Notes under the pieces: generated by a model
Seen by the model: only the letters and a program-made list of their open reading frames with translations
Told to the model about the DNA's origin: nothing
Databases searched by the model: none
Position numbers and translations under genes: made by a program
Assembly (NCBI RefSeq): GCF_001866075.3
Contig: NZ_CP063356.1
Span: 2,408,164 to 2,472,163 of the forward strand
Length of the DNA stretch: 64,000 bases
Direction: 5' to 3'
Source of the DNA: Anaerobacillus isosaccharinicus
GTDB taxonomy: Bacteria > Bacillota > Bacilli > Bacillales > Anaerobacillaceae
Shown here: in pieces, positions 8,412 through 62,665 of the stretch
How the letters are laid out: each line of letters begins with the position of its first letter
How positions within the stretch are numbered: the stretch's first letter is position 1

Positions 8412-9161
8412 TTAGCTACCTAATCCATGACGCTCACGTATAGATACTTCTCCGTCTATTAGAATTTGGTATGAATCATGGATAATACGGTCTAGAATAG
8501 CCTCCGCAATTGTTTCATTCCCCAATTTTATATGCCAACCACTAGGGTCAATTTGTGAACAGAAAATAGTCGAAGCTATCTTATGACGAGATTCTGTGAT
8601 TTCTAATAGAATTGCTGCTTCATTCGTTGATAAATCTGTTAGTAACCATTCATCAAGGATGAGTAGATCTACTTTCGTATACTTTTTAATCAATTTTCGA
8701 TAGCTTCCATCTGCAGCTAATTTTGCGAGAGACAGTTCATCTAATAATTCCGGTAAGCGAATGTATTTAACATTATAGAATTGTCGACAAGCAGATACTC
8801 CAAAGGCAGTTGCTAAAAATGTTTTTCCCGAACCAGTAGGTCCTTTCAATATGATATTGTGACTGTCATGGATATAGGTACCGCTGGCCAGTTTTAATAT
8901 CAAATTTTTATCTAATCTTCGGTCTTCGTGATATTCCATATCTTCGATACAAGCATTTGAGTTTAAAAAAGTGGCTGTATTGATCAAGCGTTGAAGCTTA
9001 TTACTCTTACGACGGGAATGTTCTAAATCGACAAGTAAACTAAAGCGTTCTTCGAAACTCAACTTTTGAAACTCTTTATTAGTTGATTGTTCCTTATAGG
9101 CTTCCGCCATTCCACTTAATTTCAATTCGTGTAGTTTGGTTAATGTCTGCTCATTCATCAT
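8412..9161 (-). CDS. istB: IS21 helper ATPase IstB
   Basis: A 249-residue AAA+ ATPase with Walker A GPTGSGKT near residue 107 and Walker B LLILDEW near 170. The N-terminal LKLSGMAEAY segment is typical of IstB. IstB binds DNA and regulates the IstA transposase in cut-and-paste transposition. Its ATG overlaps the IstA TGA stop (ATGA), the normal IS21 coupling. Length is normal and the frame is intact. Confidence 0.95.
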   Translation of the reverse strand: MMNEQTLTKLHELKLSGMAEAYKEQSTNKEFQKLSFEERFSLLVDLEHSRRKSNKLQRLINTATFLNSNACIEDMEYHEDRRLDKNLILKLASGTYIHDSHNIILKGPTGSGKTFLATAFGVSACRQFYNVKYIRLPELLDELSLAKLAADGSYRKLIKKYTKVDLLILDEWLLTDLSTNEAAILLEITESRHKIASTIFCSQIDPSGWHIKLGNETIAEAILDRIIHDSYQILIDGEVSIRERHGLGS

Positions 9162-10708
9162 TTATCCGTTCCTCCATAGTAAGAAGCTCCACGTGTGAAG
9201 CCATAATTATTTTTGCTAATATCTGTTTGACGTTTCAATTCTTGTTCGGCATCACTTTTTTTGTTGTTCTTTAAGATCGTTTGAATACTTTTGACCGTAG
9301 GTCTTTTAGTCATAGAAACTACCATTTTGCAAGCACGCTCAATCTCATATTTTGTGTAATTACGCTCAGACTTTTTCAAAGAAAATATAGACTGTAACGC
9401 TTGTTTTTCATTTTGCGAAGTATCTAAAAGATAGCGAATAACGCTTAAGGTTGATGCACCAATACTTTCAGCCCATTCTATTGCAGTTTCTGGCGTTTGA
9501 TCCACGTATAACTTATGATTATCAGGCATGTGGTCACGAAGGGTGGAAGATTGTCCAAACTTCCCGTATAGTCGTTTATGTGATGCCACACGCATATGAT
9601 TAAAAAAGATTTCAACGAGGTTATCGGAAAGTTTCACCTCGACTTCTCGATTAATATATTCGTACGGCACAGAATAAAACATGCTCTCGATAGAAAGATG
9701 ATAGTCAGGGCGTACTTTTGTTTTTTTCCATTCAGACATTTTAAAATGTGCGATTGGAAGAGGAGAAAGCGCAAATTTCTCCTCTTCTTCAAATGCTGAC
9801 AATCGAGAGCCTTTTTTTCGAGTAAAGGGACGGCGATTGAATTCATCTAATTTCTTCCAAACTTCCTCGTTCAATTCATCAATACTAAAGCAATGTGTAT
9901 TTCTTAATGCTGCTATAATCCATGTAGAGATAACACCAACGGAACCTTCAACACTTGCTTTATCTTTCGGAGTACGAACACGTGCAGGCATAACGACTGT
10001 ATTATAGTATTCTGCCATTTCTCTGTAGGTAGGATTCAAAATCAATTCACGTGTGGTATGTTTTGTTACACTCGTTTTTAGGTTATCCGGTACAACAATT
10101 TGTGTAGATCCTCCAAAATACTTATACGCACTATTGTGAGCATTAATCCATGACTGTGAATCCATTGATAAGCTTGCTTCCGCATAAGAGAATTGACTAC
10201 AAGGCAAAGTCGCAACGAAAATATAGGCTTTAACCTTCTCCCCAGTATCTCTATCAATGATAAAAGATGTGGAACCTGCCCAGTCAACTTCCATTATTTC
10301 ACCTGGTTTTCTGCGAATACGCAATGTAGCTTTGTACTTGTCAGCGTACCTGCTATAGTGCCGCAAAAAACTACGGTATGAGTACGGTATTTTTTGACTG
10401 GCTCGACATTCAGCTTCATACTCATGATGCAGAAGCGAAAGTGTCACATTAGGTTTGGCCAACTCTTCATGAATATAGTCAAAGTTCAATGGTTTTCGAC
10501 CAGAAGCCTCCAAGCTCTTCTCTGGAAAAAGAAATTCCTCAATCCACTTATCCGTCATTTCTTCCTCTAATGGACAATCTAATCCTTTCTTTTCGGCTAG
10601 GGAAATAACCTCTGTTATTTTTTGGCGAGAGTGACCTGTACTGGCGGCAATGCCCCTAAGACTGATCCCCTCATCGTGCAATTCCAATATCTTTCGATAA
10701 TGAATCAT
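9158..10708 (-). CDS. istA: IS21 family transposase IstA
   Basis: About 516 residues. An N-terminal helix-turn-helix (SLRGIAASTGHSRQKI) is followed by an rve-type catalytic core with the DDE residues in MEVDWAG, VVPDNLK and ASVEGSVG. The frame extends to 10741, but ATG 10708 has the ribosome site ATAGGAGGTA and gives the usual IstA start. Intact and probably functional with IstB. Confidence 0.95.
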   Translation of the reverse strand: MIHYRKILELHDEGISLRGIAASTGHSRQKITEVISLAEKKGLDCPLEEEMTDKWIEEFLFPEKSLEASGRKPLNFDYIHEELAKPNVTLSLLHHEYEAECRASQKIPYSYRSFLRHYSRYADKYKATLRIRRKPGEIMEVDWAGSTSFIIDRDTGEKVKAYIFVATLPCSQFSYAEASLSMDSQSWINAHNSAYKYFGGSTQIVVPDNLKTSVTKHTTRELILNPTYREMAEYYNTVVMPARVRTPKDKASVEGSVGVISTWIIAALRNTHCFSIDELNEEVWKKLDEFNRRPFTRKKGSRLSAFEEEEKFALSPLPIAHFKMSEWKKTKVRPDYHLSIESMFYSVPYEYINREVEVKLSDNLVEIFFNHMRVASHKRLYGKFGQSSTLRDHMPDNHKLYVDQTPETAIEWAESIGASTLSVIRYLLDTSQNEKQALQSIFSLKKSERNYTKYEIERACKMVVSMTKRPTVKSIQTILKNNKKSDAEQELKRQTDISKNNYGFTRGASYYGGTDK

Positions 10709-10885
10709 ACAAAAATACCTCCTATATAAAAAATGGCACACTCGAAGGTGTGCTCACTAATTATACAAAAGGCAAACTGGTAAACAGCGTGGCATTTACT
10801 GGTACATTCTTTGTCATTAGATGGTAAGAACTATGTCACTGATGGTACATTTCGTTGGCTGTAATCAGTATAAAGCCTCAATTAA

Positions 10886-39277: not shown

Positions 39278-40402
39278 ATGGAATTTGTTGAAGCAATTAA
39301 AAGTCGGCAAAAAATAAGGGAAATAAAAGAAGTTTTATTTGAGCGGTCAAAAAGAGATTACCTCTTATTCACGCTAGGGATAAACACGGGGCTAAAGGTA
39401 AGTGAACTGTTAAAAATCAAGAAGCATGAAATCATCGATAAAAATGATAATGTTAAAGAGTATCTATCAGCAGACGGCAGAGAAACTAGTTTGTGCTATC
39501 TAAACGAACAGGTTAAACAAGCAATTAAAGCATACTTGGTTACAGTTCCCTCGCTATCTAGTGATGAATACATGTTTAAATCAAAAAAAGGGGACTTTCC
39601 GATTACTAGGCAACAAGCATATCGAATTATTAATAAGGTTGCAAAAGAAGTTGGTATCGACTCGAAAATAGGAACTCACACATTAAGGAAAACGTTTGGC
39701 TATCACGCTTATCGAGGTGGTATTGCCGTTTCATTACTACAACAGATTTTTCATCATTCATCAAAAGGAGAAACAATGAAGAAATTTATTGTAAGAACAT
39801 TATATGCAAATGTCATAACATCTGTTGCTCTCATTTATTTAGCTCCTTTTGCTGCTATCACATCTTCAGAAGTGTTAATTGTGCTTTATGGGGGTGTATT
39901 ACTTGGATTAGGAATTGGACTTGTAGTTAAAGCAGGAGGAGCAATTGATGGATCAGAAATGTTAGCTGTTTGGATGAATAAGAAATATAGTATTCCAATT
40001 AGCAAATTTCTTTTAGTAATTAATGCTTTCATTTTTATCATGGCAGCAATGGTTTTTACATTAGAGAAAGCAATGTTCTCAGTTGCAATATTTTTTATAG
40101 TAACAAAGGTTATCGATTTTGTTTTGGATGGAATTAATCAAGGAAAATCAATTATGATAATTTCTACTAAACCAGAAGAGATTGGCCAAAAGTTAGTTGA
40201 TGAATTAGGGATTTCAATAACTTACCTTAATGGCACTGGTGGTTACAAGGGGGATGATATTCGCTTAATTTATTGTATTACTGATCGTTTTATGTATCCA
40301 AAATTGAAAGATTTAGTATTATCAATAGATAAATTCGCCATTTTGGAAGCTTCTTTTGTAACCGAAACAACAGGAGTTCAAAAAAATTCATTATTAAAAT
40401 AA
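39278..40402 (+). CDS. Chimeric gene: tyrosine integrase catalytic domain fused to C-terminal half of YitT-family protein
   Basis: 374 residues. Residues 1-166 are the catalytic half of a phage-type tyrosine recombinase (GINTGLKVSELL with Lys in place of the first catalytic Arg, GTHTLRKTFGYHAY, FHHSSKGETMK) but stop before the nucleophile Tyr. Residues from about 167 are the last membrane helices and cytosolic DUF2179 domain of a YitT protein (GGVLLGLGIGLVVKAGGAIDGSEML, SIMIISTKPEEI, GTGGYKGDDIRLIYCI). The frame is continuous. An AAAAGGAG site before ATG 39776 could also give the YitT half alone. Both halves lack essential parts, so this is probably a deletion fusion. Confidence 0.85.
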   Translation: MEFVEAIKSRQKIREIKEVLFERSKRDYLLFTLGINTGLKVSELLKIKKHEIIDKNDNVKEYLSADGRETSLCYLNEQVKQAIKAYLVTVPSLSSDEYMFKSKKGDFPITRQQAYRIINKVAKEVGIDSKIGTHTLRKTFGYHAYRGGIAVSLLQQIFHHSSKGETMKKFIVRTLYANVITSVALIYLAPFAAITSSEVLIVLYGGVLLGLGIGLVVKAGGAIDGSEMLAVWMNKKYSIPISKFLLVINAFIFIMAAMVFTLEKAMFSVAIFFIVTKVIDFVLDGINQGKSIMIISTKPEEIGQKLVDELGISITYLNGTGGYKGDDIRLIYCITDRFMYPKLKDLVLSIDKFAILEASFVTETTGVQKNSLLK

Positions 40403-50528: not shown

Positions 50529-50534
50529 CTCAAA

Positions 50535-50570
50535 AGTAGCTTACTAGTTAAATTAGTGAGCTACTTTTTT
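50535..50570 (+). terminator. Terminator used as group IIC intron target
   Basis: AGTAGCTTACTA and TAGTGAGCTACT pair, followed by TTTTT. The intron begins two bases later at GTGCGCCC, the classic IIC placement. Confidence 0.85.
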
Positions 50571-50571
50571 C

Positions 50572-51127
50572 GTGCGCCCAGCATGGGTGCAATCTATAGG
50601 GTGAGAGTCCCGAACTGTGAAGGCAGAAGTAACAGTTAGCCTAACGCAAGGGTGTCCATGGTGACATGGAATCTGAAGGAAGCGAGCGGCAAACTTCCGG
50701 TCTGAGGAACACGAACTTCATATAAGGCTAGGTATCGTTGGGTGAGTTTGCGAAACAAAACAAAACCCTTTCTGCCGAAGGTGATACAGAGTAAATGAAG
50801 CAGATAGATGGAAGGAAAGATTGTACTCTTACCTGGGGAGATCTGACTGATACGCCAAGTACTCTTGGTAACCTAATTAGTGATAATTAGCTGAGCAGTC
50901 AGAAGTCAGCAGAGGTCATAGTACCTTATCAACTCGAGGTGATGGGGGAAGGACTGAACAATTAAGAAGAATGAGAACTAGGCATGCAATTCCTGTGCTG
51001 AAACAGACAATCCTTACGGGGACTTACTTGAAAGAGGAAATGGTGAATACATGGGGGATTTCAAGAGGGGTGAGCAGGAATTGAAATTAATAGATAAACT
51101 CATTCACGCAGAAAGGAAAGATCGAGC
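50572..51127 (+). ncRNA. Group IIC intron ribozyme, 5' part (domains I-III/IV)
   Basis: About 556 bases of noncoding, structured sequence, from GTGCGCCC through GGGTGAGAGTCCCGAAC, AAGTAACAGTTAGCC and GAGGTCATAGTACC motifs to the reverse transcriptase start. These words are conserved in IIC introns. Confidence 0.88.
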
Positions 51128-51703
51128 TTGTTAATGGAACGCATTCTATCACGAGAAAATCTTCTAATCGCTTTGAAGCGAGTGGAAAGCAATAAAGGAA
51201 GCCATGGCATAGATGGAATGTCTGTAAAATTCCTACGAAGACATATCTGTGACACTTGGGATACTCTCTGTTCTTCATTAAGGGATGGAACCTATCAACC
51301 ACTTCCGGTACGTCGTGTCGAAATCCCGAAACCAAACGGCGGGGTAAGGTTATTAGGTATACCTACTGTGACGGATCGTTTCATCCAACAAGCGATTACC
51401 CAAATCTTAGTTCCAATATTTGATCCGACTTTCTCAAAACATAGTTACGGTTTTCGTCCAAACAAACGAGGACATGACGCGGTGAGGCAAGCAAAGGAAT
51501 ACATCAAAGAAGGGAATAGATGGGTAATTGATATAGACCTAGAGAAGTTCTTTGACAAAGTCAATCACGACAAGTTAATGGGGATTTTAGTAAAAGAACT
51601 AGATGATAAAATCCTACTAAAGCTGATACGTAAATATCTACAGGCTGGAGTTATGATCAATGGAGTCGTTCATGAAACTGATGAAGGTGCACCTCAGGGA
51701 GGA

Positions 51704-51723
51704 TTATGCTAAGCTTTGCATAA
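51704..51723. repeat. 20-bp near-palindrome at the RitC-side tip of RIT element 1
   Basis: TTATGCTAAGCTTTGCATAA, two 10-bp arms head to head with one mismatch pair, followed by the 6-bp spacer ACCGCC (51724-51729) and then the regular terminal site at 51730. There is no counterpart at the other end. Confidence 0.85.
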
Positions 51724-51729
51724 ACCGCC

Positions 51730-51811
51730 TTATGCAAAGTAAAAGATTATGCAAAGTAAACTTGCTAAAACCACACTTATTAAGTGGTTATCTTCCATTT
51801 ACTTTGCATAA
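51730..51811. repeat. Left terminal recombinase-site array of RIT element 1
   Basis: Direct TTATGCAAAG copies at 51730 and 51747, inverted copy CTTTGCATAA ending at 51811; 82 bp in total, mirrored by the right end. Confidence 0.85.
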
Positions 51812-52953
51812 TTTCTGGCCTACTTTAATTCGGACAGCCAAGAAAGCAATGCCTGATCCCTATTCCAGTCAGGAAGATTACTATCAATCAAATCAGGGTA
51901 AATATTTTCAATAGCTTTTCTTTTCGTCTCAGTATCTGTTCTGGCGTATATTTCTGTTGTTTTTATATCTACATGGCCAAGAAAATCCCGTATGTATATT
52001 AGATTTACTCCTGCTTGTAGTAAGTGCATAGCTTTCGAGTGTCTGAACATATGAGGTTTCACCTTCGAAGGCACAAGAGTCGAAGATCTCCTAGCTGATT
52101 CAACATATTTTACTATTATATAGGCAATTCCTTCCTTAGTAAGCTTGTTTTTCATATTGTTTGTAAAGAGAGGATAATCATTTTTCCATTGTTTATCCAA
52201 GCGATTTTCAGTAATATAACGTTCCAATAAAGATACGGTATTCTTCAATAGAGGAACTCGCCTTGTCTTATTTCCTTTTCCAGTTAAAACAATTACTGCC
52301 GGATTTTCTAAGATTACATCACTTACTTTTATATCAATTAGTTCTTGTACCCTAGCTCCTGTATCATACATAACACTCATTAACGTTAGGTCACGGCGGC
52401 CTTTCTGACAGCTCCTTTCGGGCTGTTCCAAAAGTATTTTCATAGCTCCTGGTGTCAAATGCTCCACTAATGGTTTTACTGCCTTTTTAGTAGGAATTGC
52501 TATTACCTTTTGAAAATGAAATAAACCGGAAGGTTCTTCAGTTTGTACGAATCGAAAAAAGGAATGTATCGCCGCAAGTCGCTGGTTTCTAGTTGAGATA
52601 CCGCACTTTCTTACAGTTTCTAACCATTCAAGAAAACCAGTAAGTAGATCACTTGAAAGAACATCCAAACTAATCCGTTCTGGTGGAATACATTTCGTGT
52701 CCTGGCAATACTTTATTAGAAGTTTAAATGTATCGCGGTATGAAAGGATTGTGTTCTGACTTACATTTTTCTTTGAAGGTAGGTATTCTGAAAGAAATTC
52801 TGTAAGGTACTGTTACCGAGCACATTATTTCAGGTTTTGATTTTCACATTACTCCGGTTGAAAATCTGAAATAATCTGCTTATTTTTCCACTTTATTTCA
52901 GATGCTTAAGAATACGTTCAAATTAATTCAGCTTTATTATAAAAGAAAAACCC

Positions 52954-53211
52954 CTAAAAAGGGGTGGAAACGGATATGGTATCTTGAATATTAATACGTA
53001 TTTTGTAAATTTCATATATTCGTAGAGTAAAGCTAACTTCGTTATCTAGCGTCACGAACCAATCAAAATCTTTCTCTAAATAAGCTTTGAAATATCGATG
53101 GTGGATCCTTATCTCAACCGTCTGGCCTTGCATCGTGAGATATGCTTGTTGTCCAATCCAAATTCGCCACTCTTGATCCATGTGATCATAGACTAATATT
53201 CCTCTTTTCAT
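52954..53211 (-). CDS. DUF5348 domain protein of the transposon
   Basis: About 85 residues, a small beta-rich protein (GILVYDHMDQEWRIWIGQ, VEIRIHHRYFKAYLE, DFDWFVTLDNEVSFTL) matching DUF5348 as I recall it. Its ATG overlaps the ATPase stop by one base (TGATG). It is consistently found at the end of this transposon type; role unknown. Confidence 0.7.
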   Translation of the reverse strand: MKRGILVYDHMDQEWRIWIGQQAYLTMQGQTVEIRIHHRYFKAYLEKDFDWFVTLDNEVSFTLRIYEIYKIRINIQDTISVSTPF

Positions 53212-54011
53212 CAAAATTCACCATCTTCAATCGCAAGTTGAACAATTTCTTCATCGATTTGATTTTTTTTCAGTTGTGAACCGAAAAGCAAGCAGTTGAC
53301 GGTTAACTTATTTATGACACGTGGCCAGCCTTGTGATCGTAATGCGATAGCTTCTAAAGCCGCATCTGTAAAAATAGGCATATTTGCTCCTGCTACTTTT
53401 AGATGGTGGGTGATATAACTTGAAACATCCTCATTTGATAGTGGCTGAAATTGATATTTCATAATAATTCGTTGTGTTAATGGCTTATTATTATTAAGAG
53501 CTAGCCTGGTTTTCAAATGCGGTAATCCTGCCAGTATCAGAATAAAAGGATTGCTAGAGTCCATTTGAAAATTAAAAAGAATCGCTAAATCCTGTAAGAA
53601 CGCATCTTTAGCCATATGCATCTCATCTAAAATAAAGACAGGCGTTACTTTACGTTCTCGAAACATTCGCTCCGTGCCATTTTGTATTTGGCGAAACAGA
53701 TCTACCTTTCGAAACTTAGGATCTTCTCCTAGGCCATATGCTAGTCCTCGATAGAAATCCATGACTCCTCCAGTGGAAAGAGGAAAGTAAATAACGTGAT
53801 ATAAGGACGGGTTTAGTGCCTCTTTAAACGATCGTAGAGTAAATGTCTTCCCAGCACCAGGATCTCCGATTAATAAACCAATTCCTCTGGATTTTTTTAA
53901 ATAATCCAAGCTATTTAATGCCCCTTGATATGTAGGGGACGTAAATGCTTCTGAAGGTTTTAATTCCTTTGAAAATGGTGTTGAAGCAAGAGAATAAAAG
54001 GTTTTATACAT
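53211..54011 (-). CDS. AAA ATPase transposition helper (ExeA/TniB-like)
   Basis: About 266 residues with Walker A GDPGAGKT (near 47), Walker B FILDEMHM (near 126), sensor-like LAGLPHLK and arginine-rich RIIMKYQFQPLS. It resembles ExeA/TniB-type ATPases that partner DDE transposases in Tn7/Tn552-like systems. The ATG at 54011 lies at the transposase end, so both are translated together. Confidence 0.85.
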   Translation of the reverse strand: MYKTFYSLASTPFSKELKPSEAFTSPTYQGALNSLDYLKKSRGIGLLIGDPGAGKTFTLRSFKEALNPSLYHVIYFPLSTGGVMDFYRGLAYGLGEDPKFRKVDLFRQIQNGTERMFRERKVTPVFILDEMHMAKDAFLQDLAILFNFQMDSSNPFILILAGLPHLKTRLALNNNKPLTQRIIMKYQFQPLSNEDVSSYITHHLKVAGANMPIFTDAALEAIALRSQGWPRVINKLTVNCLLFGSQLKKNQIDEEIVQLAIEDGEF

Positions 54012-54601
54012 GTTTCTCACCGTCCTTTAGAATATCCATTTCAGACAGCGAAAAAGGAGAACGAACACGTTTAACATGAGCGTTGTCTTCTAGTGATACA
54101 CGCTTTGCTTCCGCTACCTTTTTACCCTCTTCGAAGATATAAACACCATGCTCATCTTCTCGGACATCAATGGAATAACCAATAAAGCCGGGAGGAACTT
54201 CGTAAAGTTGTTTGTCTATCGTAATCGTTCCATCATGTTTTACTTTTCGGTTGTGACGCTTTAAAAAGATGGTTTCAAGTAAAGAAAGGTCTCCAAGAAA
54301 TTTGACTTCTTCTAGTTGTAATTGGTAAACTTCAATTGGTGTTTTGCCATCAAGAGAAGCATGAACACGGCGATGATAATCCTCTTCAAGCCAACGCCAA
54401 AATCGTTGATTTAATTCTTCAAGCGAATGAGCACGATCTGATTCTAACAACGGGTAAAACCTTGTTTGAACCGTTTTAAAGAACCTTTCAATTTTGCCTT
54501 TTGCTGCTGCGTCATACGGCTGTGTGTGAGCTAACGTAATCCCCAGCTGCGCACAAGCATATTGAAGTGTTTCAGATCGATAGATTTTACCGTTGTCGAC
54601 A

Positions 54602-54621
54602 TTATGACGAATTCGTCATAA
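54602..54621. repeat. 20-bp perfect palindrome at the RitC-side tip of RIT element 2
   Basis: TTATGACGAATTCGTCATAA, then 6-bp spacer CTGTGA (54622-54627), then the terminal repeat. Same position, length and spacing as in RIT element 1. Confidence 0.9.
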
Positions 54622-54627
54622 CTGTGA

Positions 54628-54712
54628 CTATACCGAAAAAAATACTATGCCGAATAAACTTATAAATCCTTCATAAATAAACAGTTTACGAAGGATTTTC
54701 GGCATAGTGTTT
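54628..54712. repeat. Left terminal inverted repeat of RIT element 2
   Basis: 85 bp, perfect complement of 58009-58093. It contains CTATACCGAA and CTATGCCGAA 17 bp apart, a central AAATCCTTC/GAAGGATTT hairpin, and inverted TTCGGCATAG ending at 54707. Confidence 0.93.
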
Positions 54713-54717
54713 AGCTT

Positions 54718-55761
54718 TTAGTCCAGACTATAAATCAGTTTTCTTATATCCTTGGTTTTCCAAAGCGGGGATTCTTCCACTGCCTCAGGGCTTGTTTTCT
54801 TTATGGCTTCATGAATCATATCCAACGTTGCAAAAGCATAGAAGTTTGATGTTGTTGAAAGACTTTCATGACCAAGCATTTCCATGATGACTGTGAGGGG
54901 CATACCTTTTCGGTATAACGTCATAGCTCTTGTTTTCCTGATTAAGTGGCAGTGAACATGCCGTGGGATTTCAGGACAAATCATTCTTGCCTGGTTTGCA
55001 TATTGACCTAAAAGGAGATTTATCGTATCCGTAGACAAGGCATGAGGCTTCCCATCCCTCATCGAATAGAACAATGGAGCCCCGCCATCTGTGTTTGGAT
55101 GCGGATGGAATTCCTGAAGATAACGCTTGATGTGAGCAACAGTTTTCTCCATCAGGGGCACATTACGACTTTTGTTGCCTTTACCGGTTAGCGTAACGAA
55201 AGGTGTTTTGACGTTGATAATGTGCAGATCCCGAAGGGTAATATCTACAAGTTCCTGCGCTCTGGCAGCCGTATCATACAACATAATGAACATCATGCGA
55301 TTGCGTCTTCCCTTTTGTGTATCTGTTTTAGGCGTTTTTAATAATGCTTCAATAGCTTCATTTGTCATATATAATATGGACTTTTTGTGTTCCTTCATTC
55401 CGCGAACGCTACGAACATCGTTGTATATTGCAACAAGCGTAATATCCTCGTCTGCGCAATACTCCATGAACGATTTTAGTGCAGTCAATCGAAGGTTGCA
55501 TGTTTTGGCTGCTAGATTTTGCACTTCATTCATCCAGACAAAATAATCTTTAATGTGTTTCCTATTTAGAAAGTCAAACGTAATGTCCTGTCGTTCAATC
55601 CCTTTTTGGATTTCCAAGTAATCAATAAAGTAACTCATGGACTTCTTATACGAATTTATTGTGTTTTGGCTAAGGTTTCTTACCTTGGGCAGGTATACAT
55701 GAAGGAAGCTACGAGCATAATGCCAAAATTCGGGCTCAATCTGCTTTCTACTCTTCATCAT
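54718..55761 (-). CDS. RIT element 2 tyrosine recombinase RitC
   Basis: About 347 residues. N-terminal SAM-like core-binding domain (LPKVRNLSQNTINSYKKSMSY), C-terminal catalytic domain with Arg in TAARAQELVDI, Lys region GKGNKSRNVPL, HCHLIRKTRAMTLYRKG, LGHESLSTTSNFYAF (His, Tyr). ATG 55761 follows GGAGGTGG and overlaps RitB by 14 bases, so the trio is translationally coupled. Confidence 0.92.
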   Translation of the reverse strand: MMKSRKQIEPEFWHYARSFLHVYLPKVRNLSQNTINSYKKSMSYFIDYLEIQKGIERQDITFDFLNRKHIKDYFVWMNEVQNLAAKTCNLRLTALKSFMEYCADEDITLVAIYNDVRSVRGMKEHKKSILYMTNEAIEALLKTPKTDTQKGRRNRMMFIMLYDTAARAQELVDITLRDLHIINVKTPFVTLTGKGNKSRNVPLMEKTVAHIKRYLQEFHPHPNTDGGAPLFYSMRDGKPHALSTDTINLLLGQYANQARMICPEIPRHVHCHLIRKTRAMTLYRKGMPLTVIMEMLGHESLSTTSNFYAFATLDMIHEAIKKTSPEAVEESPLWKTKDIRKLIYSLD

Positions 55762-56719
55762 AATCCACCTCCGGAAGCAACCCTTCAAGTATTTTAGTTT
55801 TTTCGGAGAAAGTAGAAAAAAACTCAGGCACAAGATGAAGATAGTAGTAGGTGCTTTCCAAACAGGCATGTCCCATGTAACGCACCAAATATGGAAGCAT
55901 GGAATTCACATCGGATTCTTCCTTAAGCCATTGATTGAGTTTGTCGAAGGCAAAATGATGGCGAAAATCATATGCTCTTGCCTTCGAGCCTGACTCATGC
56001 CCCAAACCAGCCGCCTTCCATATCTTATTGAAATTCGATCCAATAGACGTACTCTGGTAACAACTATGGGATTTTACCGGAAAGAAATACGTTCGATCTG
56101 GAAATATATTATCTATGACAGCATCGTATTTCAAATATAGTTGTTTAAGGTCTTCCGGAAGAAACAACCTTCGGTCTTTAGGGCCTTTTGAATGGATTAC
56201 ATCGATATAGCCAGTATGAAGGTTAACGTTTTTTCGCAGAAGCAACCGCGCTTCACTTGTTCTCAATCCACAACAATAAAGCAATCTAAAGTACATGGGT
56301 AGGACAAGATGGCGGACAGGATTTTCCTTGCGAGGGCCTAGTGTGTCGCAAGCATCGAAAAATCGGATAATTTCTTCATCTGTGAAAAAATGTGGTATCG
56401 TTCGGATTTGCTTTCGACAGATTTTGTTGGTGACAACATATGCATCTGAGTATCCAGAATGTTGCAGGTATTTGCCAAACTCACGAATAGGTGCCACACG
56501 TACTCGTTGGGTGTTTGGGCATTCGTTATCCCGTAAGATAACCCAACCTTTAACAATCTCGTTCAATAAAACCTCTTCGGATTCGCGTTTTGCACAATAG
56601 CGATCAAACTCGTGGAGATAGTATTCGCTTGTTTTATACTTCCAGCCTAGTGAGTGTTTAAACGCTACAAAAGACTCCATGAAAGAAGCTAGTTTACTAA
56701 CATATGCCTTCTCCATCAT
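55748..56719 (-). CDS. RIT element 2 tyrosine recombinase RitB
   Basis: About 323 residues. Catalytic residues in CGLRTSEARLLLR (Arg), SKGPKDRRLFLP (Lys), YDFRHHFAFDKL (His-x-x-Arg) and MGHACLESTYYYLH (His, Tyr). Its ATG overlaps RitA's TGA by four bases. RIT recombinases are thought to act as a set; the role of each is not established. Confidence 0.92.
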   Translation of the reverse strand: MMEKAYVSKLASFMESFVAFKHSLGWKYKTSEYYLHEFDRYCAKRESEEVLLNEIVKGWVILRDNECPNTQRVRVAPIREFGKYLQHSGYSDAYVVTNKICRKQIRTIPHFFTDEEIIRFFDACDTLGPRKENPVRHLVLPMYFRLLYCCGLRTSEARLLLRKNVNLHTGYIDVIHSKGPKDRRLFLPEDLKQLYLKYDAVIDNIFPDRTYFFPVKSHSCYQSTSIGSNFNKIWKAAGLGHESGSKARAYDFRHHFAFDKLNQWLKEESDVNSMLPYLVRYMGHACLESTYYYLHLVPEFFSTFSEKTKILEGLLPEVDYDEE

Positions 56720-57948
56720 TTGAGCCCCTTCACTTTCATAGGAATGACGGCTAAGGTTAATGCACAATCACGCATCTTTTCTTCGTCAGTAGACAGATAA
56801 ACGTCGGCTGAGTTTGGGTTGACATGCCCAAGTGTTGATGAAATTGTTTGTATGGCAACCCCATTTTTTAACATTTTTGAGGCGACATGATGTCTAAGGA
56901 GGCGGGTGCCTTTAAGTTCGTTGTTAACTCTTACTCCTGCACATGTAAATATTTTTCTTACTATGGTGTAACAACTCGAATGTTCTTTCAACGGTACATG
57001 TGGGGCATTTCGAGATAAAAATACGCACGATGAATCTGATTTAGGACGGTCATTCGTGAGATACCTTACTAATGCATTGCCGATTGCAGGAAGAAGGGGT
57101 AAAACTAAAGGCTCATTCGTCTTCTGTTGGACTATGTTAATAACATCCCCTTGCCAATCTATATCTTTTAACCTTAAGTTCAAAATATCCACGGCCCTGA
57201 TTCCAGTAAGAAGCGATAATAATATAATAGCTTTGTCCCTTGAAGATACAGCATCGGTTTGTAATACATCCCATACAGCCCGTTCTTCCTCCTCCGTTAA
57301 TACGGGAATAATTGTCCTTTTTCTCAGGAGTTTATCAGGAACGGCTGCAATAAGTCTGTTTCCACCTTCTGCAAAACGCAAAAATGATCTTAATCCGGAG
57401 GCCGCCGTTCGAAGACTTCCAGAGTCCCAGGTTTCTCTTAGTTCATCAAAAAACTTATAGATTGATTTAAGAGGGACAGCTTTCAACTCGGTATAGCCCA
57501 ATTTTTCAATAAAAATAAGGAACTTGCAGGAAGTATTTCGATACGATTCTATAGTATTTTTACTTTTTTTCTCCTCTTGTAGAAACGCTAGAAAATGGAT
57601 ATGAAGGTCCTGGAATTTAATAGTTGAGGGCTTATCGACCTTACTATCCCTGCTTGGTTGCCAGCCAAAATAGCCTCTTTCTTCATATTCCCTTAATTTT
57701 CTTATGCATGAAGTGTGTAGCTTTTTACGTGAATGGCAGTATTGTCCTGTCCTTCTGTCTGCAGAATCATTCACGAAATGCTCAACCAATTCTTGAGTTA
57801 AAGTTTCTGTCCCCATGATAGCGGCAGACTTCAACAGTCTTTCATATACCCTTTTGAAACTATGAATCGTTGATTGACAATAACCTGCTTTTTCAAGCGC
57901 TTCAAGTACCATTTTTACACTACTTTCCACAGTTGGTTTCTTTACCAT
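56716..57948 (-). CDS. RIT element 2 tyrosine recombinase RitA
   Basis: About 410 residues, with a long N-terminal arm/core-binding region (about 1-230). Catalytic residues in LTGIRAVDILNL, QQKTNEPLVLPL, TRLLRHHVASKML and LGHVNPNSADVYLS. ATG 57948 with TTAGGAGGAATT; the longer frame to 58014 would run into the terminal repeat. Confidence 0.92.
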   Translation of the reverse strand: MVKKPTVESSVKMVLEALEKAGYCQSTIHSFKRVYERLLKSAAIMGTETLTQELVEHFVNDSADRRTGQYCHSRKKLHTSCIRKLREYEERGYFGWQPSRDSKVDKPSTIKFQDLHIHFLAFLQEEKKSKNTIESYRNTSCKFLIFIEKLGYTELKAVPLKSIYKFFDELRETWDSGSLRTAASGLRSFLRFAEGGNRLIAAVPDKLLRKRTIIPVLTEEEERAVWDVLQTDAVSSRDKAIILLSLLTGIRAVDILNLRLKDIDWQGDVINIVQQKTNEPLVLPLLPAIGNALVRYLTNDRPKSDSSCVFLSRNAPHVPLKEHSSCYTIVRKIFTCAGVRVNNELKGTRLLRHHVASKMLKNGVAIQTISSTLGHVNPNSADVYLSTDEEKMRDCALTLAVIPMKVKGLK

Positions 57949-58008
57949 AGTAATTCCTCCTAAAAATAGTTTGGACGTTAGTCCACTTCTATTATGGAAA
58001 AAATAGCA

Positions 58009-58093
58009 AAACACTATGCCGAAAATCCTTCGTAAACTGTTTATTTATGAAGGATTTATAAGTTTATTCGGCATAGTATTTTTTTCGGTATAG
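58009..58093. repeat. Right terminal inverted repeat of RIT element 2
   Basis: Perfect complement of 54628-54712; abuts target hexamer TCGGCA (58094-58099). Confidence 0.93.
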
Positions 58094-58885
58094 TCGGCAT
58101 AAATCATGGATGGCTTTCCTCTTCTTATCAAAGCTTCTTTCGTCACCACTCTTACTCCATCGAATTTCTCGGAAGAGAAAAATTGAGCATAGGGCACTAG
58201 CCTCGAACAGTCGTCAATATAAGCAATGAGGAATGTCTTTTTCTTCTGAACGTACGGTCCGTGAGAGAGATCCCCTTGCCACAGTGTATTTACTTTCGCA
58301 TGGGCAAATCGTCTTCTTTCAGGAGATGTTGATACATTTTTTCCATTTAGCTTGTTTTTTCGTATTAAACGATTTATAGTACTATATGAAACTTGATTTT
58401 TGTAGATCTCTCCCTGTTCAATCAGTTGTTCGTAGAAGACACTAATGGGCATGTGGAGAGATTTTTTTCGTAGTTCGAGAATATGATCTTGATCTTCTGG
58501 AGTTAATCTTCTTGAATTACCTTGGTCCGAACGTTTCTTTGGTTTTAGTGCATCAAAGCCGTATCTCCGATAATGAAGGAGCCATTCTTGAACCGTTTTA
58601 GCTGCGATTTTCCGCTCACCATAGTATGGGATAGAATGACTTTTTGCCTCTATTTCAACCCAATATCCCTTCGGTTCTACTTGCCCATTTAGCAGTGGGG
58701 CGATAATTCCATAACGAAATAAAGCGATTTGTTCACGTATTTTATCTTCCATGGATTTCTTCCTCCTTTTAGTAGAAGGACGACCGGTCATCCATGCTTT
58801 TATTCTACTTTTTTCGCCATAAATAGAAAATGAAAACGTTATGTGGAATCTTCAATATATTTTTTAAACGCCAAATATGCTAAAA

Positions 58886-59410
58886 TTAAAGTGCCATAAA
58901 GTGTTTCTTTAAATGACCCTGGCTCCTTCGCAAGAAGGAGGATTCGCCAAAATCTTGGATCATTTTTAAATATTTTATGGCTTCTTTTTTTTGATCATCT
59001 GAGAAACTAAGGGCATAATCCAAATCAGAAAAATAAGTATGAACCCATTTAAGAATACTTACATAACGTTTGAAATGAAAATTTACTAATTGACGACGAT
59101 CGAACGCTTTCTTTTTTAGTAGACGTTGTTCAACTCCTTGAACAATAGTATGTAAAGTATGCTGGAAATGCGGGATGAGAAAGTCAGGAATGATTGAAAA
59201 TGTAGTTTTACAGTGTTTGCACTTCAAACGACAAATAGGAATACTTATTGCCCCCTTTTCAGTAATTCCAAACCTCATATAAAACCCATGACGATATAGT
59301 TTCCCCCGCCCCTTACACTCAGAACAAAACTCAATAATCGGGAATTCATTTTCTTTCCCTCTTAATTCATACTCTTGTAATCCGATTCCAAAATCATGAA
59401 TAATGACCAT
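58886..59410 (-). CDS. DUF6431 zinc-ribbon protein of the transposon
   Basis: 174 residues. Two CxxC-type pairs (CSECKGRG, CKHCKTTF) form a zinc ribbon, followed by SIIPDFLIPHFQHTLHTIVQG and a helical tail. It matches the DUF6431 family, which in my memory accompanies such DDE/AAA transposons as first gene. Probably an end-binding or regulatory protein. AAAAGGGGGAG precedes the ATG. Confidence 0.72.
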   Translation of the reverse strand: MVIIHDFGIGLQEYELRGKENEFPIIEFCSECKGRGKLYRHGFYMRFGITEKGAISIPICRLKCKHCKTTFSIIPDFLIPHFQHTLHTIVQGVEQRLLKKKAFDRRQLVNFHFKRYVSILKWVHTYFSDLDYALSFSDDQKKEAIKYLKMIQDFGESSFLRRSQGHLKKHFMAL

Positions 59411-59548
59411 AAAAAACTCCCCCTTTTAATATGCAAAAAATTTAGCACATTATCTCGGGAGAGTATATAGTTTATTCTGGTGTAATTTGAAAAAAATGCG
59501 ATCAAACGAGAAGAAATAAAGTGACTATCTACAAGGTACTTCGCAAAA

Positions 59549-60535
59549 TCAGTAGGTTTCATTGGTATCACCTTCTAATTCTGGGATTATACTTGGAAAC
59601 TCAGTCTCTAGTTTCAATGTAATATAAGGGAATACATCTGCAGTCAAACGTAAGTAATAAGCAGTTTCATGAAAAGAATCGTGGCCCAAAAATGCTTTAA
59701 GTACTGGAAGATACGCCGTTAAATCCCTTTCATCTTCAGCCCATTTTTTTAGACGATGTACCGCAAAAGTGTGGCGAAAATCGTGTATACGTGGGCCTTG
59801 TCCTCTTCCACCATGTGAAATTCCAGCACCCCATAAAAACCTACGGAAATTTTTATATATGTTTCCTACCGTCATCGGTCTGCCATCAAGAGCAGGAAAA
59901 TAATAATCTTCTGCTTTCGGATAAGGGTGTACCAACTTTGAAAATATCCTACACCGTTCCGTAAGGGACGCGGACATAGGAACCAATCGGCTGTTATCCT
60001 TTTTGGATTGATTTATGGTGAGGATACCATTATCAAGATCTACTTCATTTACTTTGAGAAGTCTCGCCTCAGATACCCTCAACCCGCACATATAAATCAT
60101 TCGAAAGAACACAGGCATAATTAAATGCCTATTGGGACATTCGTAACTAAACTTACATTTTTCCGTTTTGGAAAAAAAGTTTGTTAGTTCGACGTCTGTA
60201 TATATGTAAGGGTTATATTGTTCCCCTTTAGGAAAATACCCTTTTGGAATTATATATGCTTTAACACCAATAGAATCAAGATATTTTCCAAACTGTCGAA
60301 TGACAGATGCGCGAGAACATTGATTTGCTTGTGCCTCGTAAGATTTTTTGCTACACCAGTTTAATACGATTTCTTTAGTAAGTTCTGTGGCAAGGGGGTA
60401 TTTTTCCAATGTAAATTTATCAAAACGTTTTAAGTGGTGTGAGTCAGTATCGTATTTATATCCAACCGATCGTTTCAGTTCCACATGATTGTAAATATGA
60501 TCTTTAAAAGGTCCCTCATAAATGATTTCACTCAT
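59549..60535 (-). CDS. RIT element 1 tyrosine recombinase RitB
   Basis: About 328 residues, same class as the RIT 2 RitB: CGLRVSEARLLKV (Arg), SKKDNSRLVPM, IHDFRHTFAVHRLKKW, LGHDSFHETAYYLRL (His, Tyr). ATG 60535 after AAGGAGGTAC, overlapping RitA by 8 bases. Frame intact. Confidence 0.92.
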   Translation of the reverse strand: MSEIIYEGPFKDHIYNHVELKRSVGYKYDTDSHHLKRFDKFTLEKYPLATELTKEIVLNWCSKKSYEAQANQCSRASVIRQFGKYLDSIGVKAYIIPKGYFPKGEQYNPYIYTDVELTNFFSKTEKCKFSYECPNRHLIMPVFFRMIYMCGLRVSEARLLKVNEVDLDNGILTINQSKKDNSRLVPMSASLTERCRIFSKLVHPYPKAEDYYFPALDGRPMTVGNIYKNFRRFLWGAGISHGGRGQGPRIHDFRHTFAVHRLKKWAEDERDLTAYLPVLKAFLGHDSFHETAYYLRLTADVFPYITLKLETEFPSIIPELEGDTNETY

Positions 60536-61763
60536 GATTAAGTACCTCCTTAAAATCAATAGAACATTCCTTAAGCTTTATGATATCAACCTTTAGATAG
60601 ACGGCTGTTGAGTCTGTATCCAAATGGCCAAGGATATCTGAAATAGTGGAAAGAGGGGTATCCTTTTCAAGAAGTACGCTGGCCAGGGTGTGTCTAAGGG
60701 AATGCATTCCTCTCCTTTTTTTTAAAGAGGGAATGTGTGCTAATTCCATGTATCTTTTAATTATCTGATTTAAATGGTCTCCTTCTGAAAAGGGACCAAA
60801 TGGAGCTATGTGTTTTACGAATAAATAGGGAGTGTTTATTTTAGGACGACCGTACTTAAGATAATCAATAACTGCCCACCCCACCTCCGGTGTTAATGGT
60901 AGAGTTAAAGGTTGTCTCGTTTTTGATTGTGTAAATACAAGAACCTTATCTTCCCAATGAAAGTTCTCCATTTTAAGATTTTTAATATCCGTACACCGTA
61001 AACCAAGGCAACATGCCATTAAAATAATGGCATAATCTCTTTTCCCCTTTGGACTTCCTCTGTCAATGGCAGCGATTAGTTTTTTTAATTCTTCCTCAGT
61101 CCAAACAGATGGAATACGGGTCTGTTTCCTTGCCTGAACCATAGGTGTTTTCGATGCAAGATCAGTGTTTATTTCTCCGTTTTCTAGAAGAAACCTGAAA
61201 AAGGCACGCAGTGAACAAATATTTTGTTCAACAGTTTTATAAGTATAACTAGCTAATGTTTTAATGTAGTTATTTATCAATGTAACATTTATATCTTTAC
61301 ATTCTTTAACCTTCTGCGAAGAAAGGTAATCCATAAATCGTGCAGATTGTTTTACATAATGATCTATCGTCACATTGGAATAATCTTTATCTTTACAATA
61401 TTGTTTAAAACGACCACTGACCTCAATGAAAAAAGGATCCGTAAGGATCTCCTTATGTTTGTAATACCGACGTAACACGGTATTGTGTAACTGGAAATCC
61501 CCGATCATTCTGATGATACGTAGCTCTTGAGTCTCTGACTGAGATAGTTTTTGATTAAAGTCTTTTTCAAAAATACTAAAGTATTTCTCAACAAAATCTA
61601 TTCCAAGTTTTTCAGAGAAATAGTTTTCACCTTTTTCTTGAGCGAATTGAATTAACATTTTCCATCTTCTACGGTAAAAATTCATACTTCCTTCTGTATA
61701 ACCAAGGTGTACCATTTCTTGCTCAAGAGCGTTGATTAGTTCTTCTAATGTTTTCTTTTGCAT
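60528..61763 (-). CDS. RIT element 1 tyrosine recombinase RitA
   Basis: About 411 residues. N-terminal binding domains, then CLGLRCTDIKNLK (Arg), QSKTRQPLTLPLT, MHSLRHTLASVLLEK, LGHLDTDSTAVYLK (His, Tyr). ATG 61763 after TTGGAGGGATATTT. Intact; with RitC broken the element is probably unable to move unless helped in trans by a relative. Confidence 0.92.
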   Translation of the reverse strand: MQKKTLEELINALEQEMVHLGYTEGSMNFYRRRWKMLIQFAQEKGENYFSEKLGIDFVEKYFSIFEKDFNQKLSQSETQELRIIRMIGDFQLHNTVLRRYYKHKEILTDPFFIEVSGRFKQYCKDKDYSNVTIDHYVKQSARFMDYLSSQKVKECKDINVTLINNYIKTLASYTYKTVEQNICSLRAFFRFLLENGEINTDLASKTPMVQARKQTRIPSVWTEEELKKLIAAIDRGSPKGKRDYAIILMACCLGLRCTDIKNLKMENFHWEDKVLVFTQSKTRQPLTLPLTPEVGWAVIDYLKYGRPKINTPYLFVKHIAPFGPFSEGDHLNQIIKRYMELAHIPSLKKRRGMHSLRHTLASVLLEKDTPLSTISDILGHLDTDSTAVYLKVDIIKLKECSIDFKEVLNHE

Positions 61764-61819
61764 AAATATCCCTCCAAAATGAAGTATTTGAGCTTCGGCT
61801 CTAATTACCATCTTGGACA

Positions 61820-61901
61820 TTATGCAAAGTAAATTTCACAAAAACATTGATTTTAAGGTGATTTTTTAAGGTAACTTCGCATAATTACTTTCTTTGCATA
61901 A
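61820..61901. repeat. Right terminal recombinase-site array of RIT element 1
   Basis: TTATGCAAAG at 61820, then on the opposite strand TTATGCGAAG and terminal TTATGCAAAG 17 bp apart, ending at 61901; 82 bp, mirroring 51730-51811. Confidence 0.85.
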
Positions 61902-62591
61902 GGTGGTCCACTAAGTCCGCTCCTATCAAATGTCATTCTTAATGAACTAGATAAAGAACTAGAGAAAAGAGGACATAATTTTGTTCGTTATGCCGACGAT
62001 GCCAATATCTACGTGAAAACGAAGAAAGCCGGAGAGCGCGTTATGAACTCAGTTACTGATTTCATTGAAACCAAACTTAAGCTTAAAGTAAATAAGAACA
62101 AGTCAGCAGTAGATCGCCCTTGGAAACGTAAGTTTCTAGGTTTTAGTTTTACTGTCCAAAAAGACCCGAAAATTCGTATCTCAAACGAAAGTATTAAGAG
62201 GCTGAAAGCCAAAATAAGGGAGATCACTTCAAGATCTAAACCGCTTTCTATGGATCAACGGATCAAACAGCTCAACCAGTATTTAACTGGATGGTGTGGA
62301 TATTACGCACTAGCTGATACTCCTAGCAAATTCAAGGGTTTTGATGAATGGATTAGAACAAGACTTAGAATGTGTGAATGGAAACAATGGAAACTGCCTA
62401 AAATGAGAGTAAGAAAACTCACGGGTTTAGGAGTCCCAAAACAAAAGGCATACGAATGGGGAAACACAAGGAAGAAATATTGTAGGATTTCTATTAGTCC
62501 AATTCTAAAGAAAACCCTTAATAACGCCTATTGGAGTCATCAAGGGTTGAAAAGTTTATATCAACGATATGAATTTCTACGTCATACTTAA

Positions 62592-62665
62592 TTGAACCGC
62601 CGTATACCGAACGGTACGTACGGTGGTGTGAGAGGTCGGGGGTTAATCACCCCCTCCTACTCGAT
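62592..62665 (+). ncRNA. Group IIC intron domains V and VI
   Basis: Domain V hairpin ACCGCCGTATACCG / CGGTACGTACGGTGGT with AAC bulge region, then the domain VI stem (GAGGTCGGGGG / CCCCCTCCTACTC) and 3' terminus near 62665. Confidence 0.88.

Follow-up and report, generated by a model that had tools for sequence, protein, structure and literature searches.

The stretch studied here, called the window throughout, comprises 64,000 bases of the genome of Anaerobacillus isosaccharinicus (positions 2,408,164-2,472,163 of a single 5,227,144-base contig). It contains four mobile elements nested in one another: a group II intron is interrupted in its reverse transcriptase (RT) gene by a RIT element (RIT 1), RIT 1 is interrupted in ritC by a DDE/AAA transposon, and the DDE gene of the transposon is interrupted by a second RIT (RIT 2). 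A preliminary description of this DNA had named these four layers, the three element types and the gene broken at each step, and gene calls together with Pfam, NCBIfam and Rfam matches bear it out. Taken alone, the nest is real and a modest curiosity. What had been overlooked is that the RIT break-points within it are, as read from sequence comparisons, recurrent site-specific strikes on the codons of conserved motifs and not accidents. The layers and their genes are the following.

50532-50568, plus strand: terminator-like inverted repeat just 5' of the intron (18-nt arms, 89%)
50573-62665, plus strand: group II intron, layer 1, interrupted within its RT gene (Rfam; 5' end placed by eye)
51128-51697, plus strand: N-terminal piece of the RT, broken in the PQGG codons (TIGR04416 positions 2-185 of 353; homologue L007)
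51730-61901, minus strand: RIT 1, layer 2, holding layers 3 and 4, with end arms TTATGCAAAG / CTTTGCATAA (from sequence)
51820-52810, minus strand: RIT 1 RitC, remainder (PF00589)
52811-59533, minus strand: DDE/AAA transposon, layer 3, ends TGT...ACA, flanked by the duplication AGGTAC (52805-52810 and 59534-59539)
52954-53214, minus strand: small open reading frame (ORF) of the transposon, no family match, also present in L064 and L065-L068
53211-54020, minus strand: AAA ATPase of the transposon (PF13401)
54004-54601, minus strand: C-terminal piece of the DDE transposase, its first six bases being a RIT 2 spacer (Mu-transpos_C; L064)
54628-58093, minus strand: RIT 2, layer 4, with inverted-repeat ends (94-nt arms including a few flanking bases, 98%)
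54718-55869, minus strand: RIT 2 RitC (gene call, profile match)
55748-56767, minus strand: RIT 2 RitB (gene call, profile match)
56716-58014, minus strand: RIT 2 RitA (gene call, profile match)
58094-58791, minus strand: N-terminal piece of the DDE transposase (NF033577; intact copy L064)
58886-59410, minus strand: DUF6431 protein of the transposon (PF20020)
59534-59562, minus strand: RIT 1 RitC, first codons (intact homologue L076)
59549-60559, minus strand: RIT 1 RitB, tyrosine recombinase (gene call, Pfam)
60528-61820, minus strand: RIT 1 RitA, tyrosine recombinase (gene call, Pfam)
61908-62594, plus strand: C-terminal piece of the RT with maturase domain, beginning PLSP (TIGR04416 221-353, GIIM)

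The rebuilt RT, RitC and DDE proteins were checked against intact homologues and, as had been expected of them, the two pieces of each align consecutively. The RT pieces ending ..EGAPQGG and beginning GGPLSPLLSNV adjoin in L007, where a congener has an intact RT of 433 aa (88% identity over the N-terminal piece). The two RitC pieces, KPTDFAKY and YLTEFLSEYL.., follow directly on one another in L076, whose RitC is intact (84% identity over 51820-52668). The DDE gene has an intact copy at 3.16 Mb (L064), in which the N- and C-terminal pieces find adjoining counterparts of 100% and 99.5% identity. The marks of a group II intron are present in the window as RNA domains D1-D4 (RF02001 at 50655-50827 and RF01998 at 50869-50954, Rfam), D5-D6 (RF00029 at 62595-62665) and an RT/maturase; the hairpin at 50532-50568 lies upstream, and the intron is a candidate for class IIC. 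The labels IIC for the intron and IS481-like for the transposon are ones that we assume. The intron resembles those of the IIC type in its Rfam domains, apparent terminator-like target and RT/maturase, the transposon resembles IS481-like DDE/AAA transposons in its TGT..ACA ends and its DDE and AAA genes, and the only oddity of either is to be interrupted. The right end of the transposon recurs in other contexts (twice in L060, and in L064) and its left end in L208. Three adjacent, overlapping tyrosine-recombinase genes are present in RIT 1, where ritC is split, and in RIT 2 (Pfam/NCBIfam), and RIT 2 also has the size of 3.4-3.5 kb and the inverted terminal repeats of a RIT. All six Rit proteins carry the LGH/MGH..Y boxes; RitC of RIT 2 reads HLIRK where the other aligned RitCs have RH.

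Nested repeats are easily misassembled, and the nest might be an artefact of assembly. The genome is, however, one 5.2-Mb contig, and the junctions carry a transposon duplication, host-matching spacers and a layout that is found in unrelated genomes, so that we consider an artefact hardly credible at all. The coordinates given before are accurate to a few bases (transposon 52811-59533; RIT 2 arms 54628-54637 and 58084-58093). Two of the earlier statements need to be narrowed. It had been held that removing each insert with one copy of a flanking repeat restores the frame; this is right for the transposon with its AGGTAC copies and wrong for both RITs, where a 6-mer like that of the host borders one side, and the other side has a 20-bp palindrome and a 6-mer of another sequence (GGTGGT against GGAGGA in the RT gene, TGCCGA against TGTCGA in the DDE gene, where the intact copy L064 has TGCCGA). 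Relatives of the transposon (L065-L068) have 7-bp duplications. Judged from the flanks in the window, the DDE/AAA transposon is the only one of RIT 1, the transposon and RIT 2 to make a target duplication. The order of arrival had also been called fixed. Containment, that is, which element was entered, stands, but the claim on order of arrival is too strong here, because a composite could have entered whole, an intact copy such as L064 assisting the transposon in trans.

When its ends are resolved, a RIT consists of a trio of tyrosine-recombinase genes of about 3.4 kb with inverted ends and, separate from it, a 20-bp palindrome, P. The layout is host, L (6 bp), RIT, M (6 bp), P (20 bp), R (6 bp), host, where L, M and R are spacers. 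P is a near-perfect palindrome that looks like two RIT end-arms placed back to back, e.g. TTATGGAAAGCTTTCCATAA; the end arms of RIT 1 lie at 51730-51739 and 61892-61901. In the window these parts were read from the sequence as listed here.

51698-51703, plus strand: RIT 1 spacer R, GGAGGA, by the model foreign to this RT site
51704-51723, no strand: RIT 1 palindrome P, TTATGCTAAGCTTTGCATAA
51724-51729, plus strand: RIT 1 spacer M, ACCGCC, between P and the ritC end
61902-61907, plus strand: RIT 1 spacer L, GGTGGT, by the model host RT codons
54596-54601, minus strand: RIT 2 spacer R, TGTCGA, differing from the host TGCCGA
54602-54621, no strand: RIT 2 palindrome P, TTATGACGAATTCGTCATAA
54622-54627, plus strand: RIT 2 spacer M, CTGTGA (read from P into RIT 2), equal to the host spacer of the copy at 2.25 Mb
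58094-58099, minus strand: RIT 2 spacer L, TGCCGA, host codons

Which end of the RIT touches P varies (ritA/ritC ends: eight A and five C in RT targets, four A and seven C in Walker A targets). The side of the target motif on which P lies is constant, in 13 of 13 RT and 11 of 11 Walker A cases as judged by the steady reading of the L spacer, and this was so in all three classes examined (DDE, RT and Walker A) with the RIT in either orientation. The spacers fit NCCNCC in 38 of 39 RT-site cases, the exception being R of L153, and NGGNAA in 33 of 33 Walker A cases; for M and R only, which need not match the host, the counts are 25/26 and 22/22. The N positions are codon third positions. Since M and R share the target pattern and vary at third positions, they look like pieces of earlier targets of the same kind. 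L thus looks like the current host site, and M and R like two earlier ones. Target-site duplication by RITs was considered as well and is ruled out, as empty sites show none.

RIT 2 gives the most direct view of insertion. Its RitB has six 100% matches genome-wide, and a 3.3-kb core is identical in all six copies, those of the window, L061, L062 and L063 being simple insertions and those of L060 and L208 rearranged ones. All six have their host junctions at the DNG codons of DDE genes that are 29-100% identical to that of the window. Intact relatives provide the empty sites of three of the four simple insertions (L064; L065-L068; L073-L075). Identical copies in different sites support transposition of RITs, as far as sequence can. 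For RIT 1, L076 and L079 hold relatives that break an RT gene at the same point, as seen at both junctions of L076 and at one of L079. A third family in this genome, RIT 3, occupies the Walker A codons of IstB-like genes (four loci, two with the same flanks), and RIT 4 of a congener (G002; at least five loci) the NEKG/HVE codons of an IstA-like gene.

The two rearranged RIT 2 loci are of a peculiar kind. L060 (757-762 kb) has RIT 2 with two transposase N-halves and no P, and L208 (1.161-1.179 Mb) has RIT 2 with two C-halves and P on both sides; both probably arose when RIT copies some 0.4 Mb from each other recombined into new arrangements. Among other RITs, N-half/N-half junctions without P occur in L100 and L101, and P on both sides in L146 and L164, which suggests that rearrangements of this type recur. 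The RIT 2 copies of the window and of L208, where a C-half of the same type of transposase is found at 1.17 Mb, are indicated by spacers and orientation to be separate insertions.

Targets were then compared more widely through one scan of 84,980 species genomes, from which the best 80 of at least 508 RitC relatives were kept; five of them (Legionella, Serratia, Francisellaceae, Coxiellaceae) were left out and 75 remain. Within these best 80, P plus arms was found at threshold in 25 of the 40 loci with both ends on the contig and in 8 of the 35 others. As a control of the detector, 10 of 18 real loci pass, and none of 90 shuffles of those ends. A target could be named in 26 of the 33 P-positive loci: the RT PQGG codons in 11, IstB Walker A in 8, IstB Walker B in 1, IstA in 1, IS66 in 2, RadC in 2 and a TetR-like gene in 1, the Walker B and TetR readings being by eye. 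Mobile-element genes thus make up 23 of 26. The motifs are named here as PQGG, Walker A/B, DNG, KGxVE, HxHPSG and the IS66 motifs. Pfam was run on flank pieces, one per locus, at 20 loci. IstB was matched in 8/8 IstB loci. Its profile is interrupted at 104-107 in L099, L103, L112, L114, L147 and L168, six Walker A loci, and at 159 in the Walker B locus L175. RVT_1 breaks at position 123 in the window and at 121-122 in four of seven RT loci (L130, L139, L153, L171). Further flank matches are to IS66 (L165), RadC (L166) and, weakly, the rve core (L086). Assigning the pHG1 target (L092) to a tyrosine recombinase and that of L106 to a TetR gene was weak, with no Pfam match on either flank.

Rhizobial plasmid RITs lie in the 'TAKLN.VDP' codons of IS66. 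In Sinorhizobium fredii CCBAU 83666 one RIT (L270) is beside annotated TRAP-transporter genes, not IS66, and its L spacer is atypical for the family, a possible off-target insertion. Four RITs (L088, L089, L238, L239) appear, by eye from the flanks, to lie in DNA for domain V of group II introns, which is a ribozyme motif and not a protein motif; Rfam finds intron D1-D4 in L089, L238 and L239, not in L088.

The spacers also suggest how RITs might move. Recombination at the outer sites would yield a circle made up of the RIT and P, and the L spacer of the donor would be retained at the new junction (S). The circle would thus have two equivalent RIT-P junctions and could integrate at either. Entry via the old junction would make R the donor M and M the donor L, with the RIT reversed; entry via the new one would make R the donor L and M the donor M, with the RIT unreversed. 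The target would keep its own spacer as L, and each RIT would hold a two-slot record of earlier sites. As the donor copy remains, movement would probably be copy-out, as has been proposed for SE elements. The RIT 2 copies illustrate the rule. In the window L is TGCCGA, M CTGTGA and R TGTCGA; L063 (2.25 Mb) has L CTGTGA and M TGTCGA, and L062 (1.38 Mb) has L TGTCGA and M TGCCGA, which fits a line of descent from L062 at 1.38 Mb through L063 at 2.25 Mb to the window.

The rule was written from four RIT 2 copies before it was tested elsewhere, and RIT 3 revealed the unreversed mode. The test set holds 44 copies of five families (RIT 2, 6; RIT 3, 3; Neobacillus, 4; rhizobial, 29; Mesorhizobium, 2). 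Copies were dropped for odd end lengths (L240, L241), P not found (L242, L271), a missing outer end (L275, L276) or identity of place or flanks (L245/L246 with L269/L270, L247 with L277, the host flanks of L267 with L231, the flanks of L072 with L070). Also dropped were L213/L249, where one base is absent at the record start and which otherwise fits, L060, five RIT 4 copies and the single-copy RIT 1; L094, L095 and L177-L182 were counted under their later names L215-L222 (L180 = L219 etc.), and both L spacers of L208 were inferred from the host type. Within genomes, 20 unambiguous spacer-matched pairs were found, all with the predicted orientation (17 reversed, 3 not), besides two ambiguous ones. 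The rule explains 18 of 44 copies as recipients, against permutation means of 4.4-12.0 (p 0.0001-0.0002) when L, M/R pairs or orientation were permuted, be it within families or genomes. The three families that had no part in building the rule (35 copies) give 14/14 pairs with the right orientation and 13 recipients (p 0.0001-0.004).

Given that spacers are limited to a few codon choices, matches could arise by chance, and indeed, between genomes, for which one would not expect direct descent, matches are frequent. They serve as a control, and only 12 of these 20 pairs are rightly oriented (an earlier, smaller set gave 15/15 within genomes and 6/11 across). With 20/20 within genomes and with the permutations of L, M/R and orientation all giving the low p values above, chance is an extremely improbable explanation. 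A second one would treat P as part of one RIT end and let orientation flip in place by homologous recombination between the inverted ends. RIT 2 does have the 94-nt inverted repeat that this needs, and the rearranged copies, N-half/N-half (L060, L100, L101) or with P on both sides (L208, L146, L164), are in its favour. A flip in place would, however, leave the spacers put, whereas in each of the 17 flip pairs M and R change places too, as the choice of junction demands, and P is tied to neither the ritA nor the ritC end, which makes this explanation very unlikely.

Inheritance of the donor R was examined as a general rule and rejected. An uncorrected comparison put it level with the L rule (16 versus 14 recipients of 26), and the two rules were therefore separated. 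Matches without a flip (7 within genomes in the smaller set, 5 of them with the right orientation) are expected of siblings sharing M and R, and the four flips are L-rule pairs read in reverse. Most pairs are reversed, so entry would be mostly via the older junction; we would guess that resolution of the new junction is still under way, or that the inverted ends are separated by P in the circle.

A Tn916-like route of conservative excision and integration, with coupling sequences, might also proceed through a circle of RIT and P, with donors persisting via sister chromosomes only. It would give the same spacer inheritance, and a text on SEs mentions Tn916 circles whose spacers are heteroduplex (PMC10214605). 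In every matched pair the donor is still occupied, which speaks against it, though this is so by construction of the test. Donor L and R differ in 15 of 20 pairs and L is inherited, which suggests exchange of one strand; this point, too, follows from having searched with the L rule, and four pairs in the reverse direction fit R. We regard the conservative route as unlikely.

Taken together, we consider it probable, from sequence comparison, that the nest arose because RITs insert site-specifically at conserved-motif, mostly catalytic, codons of the enzymes of other mobile elements, and that the circle and spacer rule governs their movement. A number of observations pull the other way. On the side of the targets, mobile-element genes are common in genomes, so target frequency may reflect opportunity and not dedication. 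P was undetected in 15 of the 40 eligible loci (L105 has it by eye, L100 and L101 are N-half/N-half, L140 is below threshold and 11 are unexplained), nor was it found in the plasmid RITs L093, L096 and L236. The profile match lies away from the break in the Walker A locus L107, where IstB starts at 119, and in the RT loci L109 and L124, where RVT_1 ends at 115 and 107; Pfam gave no match on the flank of L155 (an RT locus), L106 or L092. Among the RIT 1 relatives, the incomplete L077 has RT on the ritC side only, and in L078 the RIT is truncated and the adjoining RT fragment stops short of PQGG. For L062 no empty site is known. On the side of the rule, 26 of 44 copies are without a donor in their genome; their donors may have been lost, or they may break the rule. 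The pairs are non-independent, 29 of 44 copies belonging to one rhizobial family and two recipients having two candidate donors, and the pair L208X to L063 rests on an L inferred from host type, L208 being rearranged. Pooling within- and cross-genome pairs in the earlier, smaller set left a weaker excess (p 0.003-0.067), and a stricter earlier test gave p 0.027-0.075. Four flips within genomes agree with R and not L and are rightly oriented, each being an L-rule pair read backwards, and the RIT 4 copies of G002, with all spacers identical, are uninformative.

Elements of this kind have been on record since 2009 (PMC10214605). Van Houdt 2012 described RITs of about 3.5 kb with an inverted repeat and an 'overlapping palindromic sequence', mobility being undemonstrated, and noted insertions in the transposase gene of a Tn6049-like element and in radC (PMC3414803); the CH34 genome paper lists insertions in radC and IS66 tnpA (PMC2864759), and a survey of tyrosine recombinases describes RitA with two core-binding domains (PMC8138268). 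The published RITs of Cupriavidus, Acidithiobacillus and others are like those studied here in their three overlapping tyrosine-recombinase genes, length of about 3.5 kb, inverted repeat and palindrome at the ends. In the sections concerned no target rule or mechanism is given (PMC3414803, PMC2864759), whereas here P would be a separate module, the spacers a record and the targets conserved-motif codons. Table 1 of the SE paper lists target specificity, empty site and movement of RITs as not tested (PMC10214605).

On moving, SEs and Tn554 take along the 6 bp at the left of the donor, which end up at the right of the new site (PMC10214605). They share with RITs this transfer of a donor flank, here statistical and accompanied by the P-junction rule, as well as several tyrosine recombinases, and in SEs the donor is not emptied, as we propose for RITs; unlike in RITs, a P module and orientation switching are not described in the part of that paper on SE/Tn554 (PMC10214605). 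A Srap/TnpC-like accessory gene, a trait of SE/Tn554, was not seen in RIT 2, whose coding-strand ORFs of at least 80 aa are the three recombinases only. GInts likewise have three integrases and circles with variant spacers, some excision occurring without an empty site; they differ in having four genes, cargo islands and direct imperfect repeats, and palindromes go unmentioned in the main text (PMC5385486). A RIT target rule or P-junction mechanism was not found in the literature searched, Ricker 2013 and Nielsen 2017 lying outside that scope. Within it, the target rule and the readable record of moves appear to be new.

A broader reading, towards which we lean with reservation, is that RITs are widespread hyperparasites of mobile elements. 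Each family would home to essential-motif codons (or ribozyme domain V) of a competitor and silence it; the circle would have two parts, the 20-bp palindrome of two end-arms being a minimal partner element, and its two junctions would amount to a heritable two-slot memory, with the transposition tree readable from the spacers. If site-specific insertion and the circle and spacer rule are right, a target rule and a movement mechanism come together with a precise prediction for each transposition event, and RITs would both suppress other mobile elements in nature and offer natural tools that are site-specific. Break-points of nested elements can then be a targeting signal and not chance.

Two further loci of the window may be mentioned. 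At 8412-10741 lies an IS21-like istB/istA pair, recognised by eye, whose Walker A codons are uninterrupted and which is a potential target of RIT 3. At 39278-40402 a single ORF seems, by eye, to fuse a membrane protein resembling YitT with a tyrosine-recombinase domain that is truncated.

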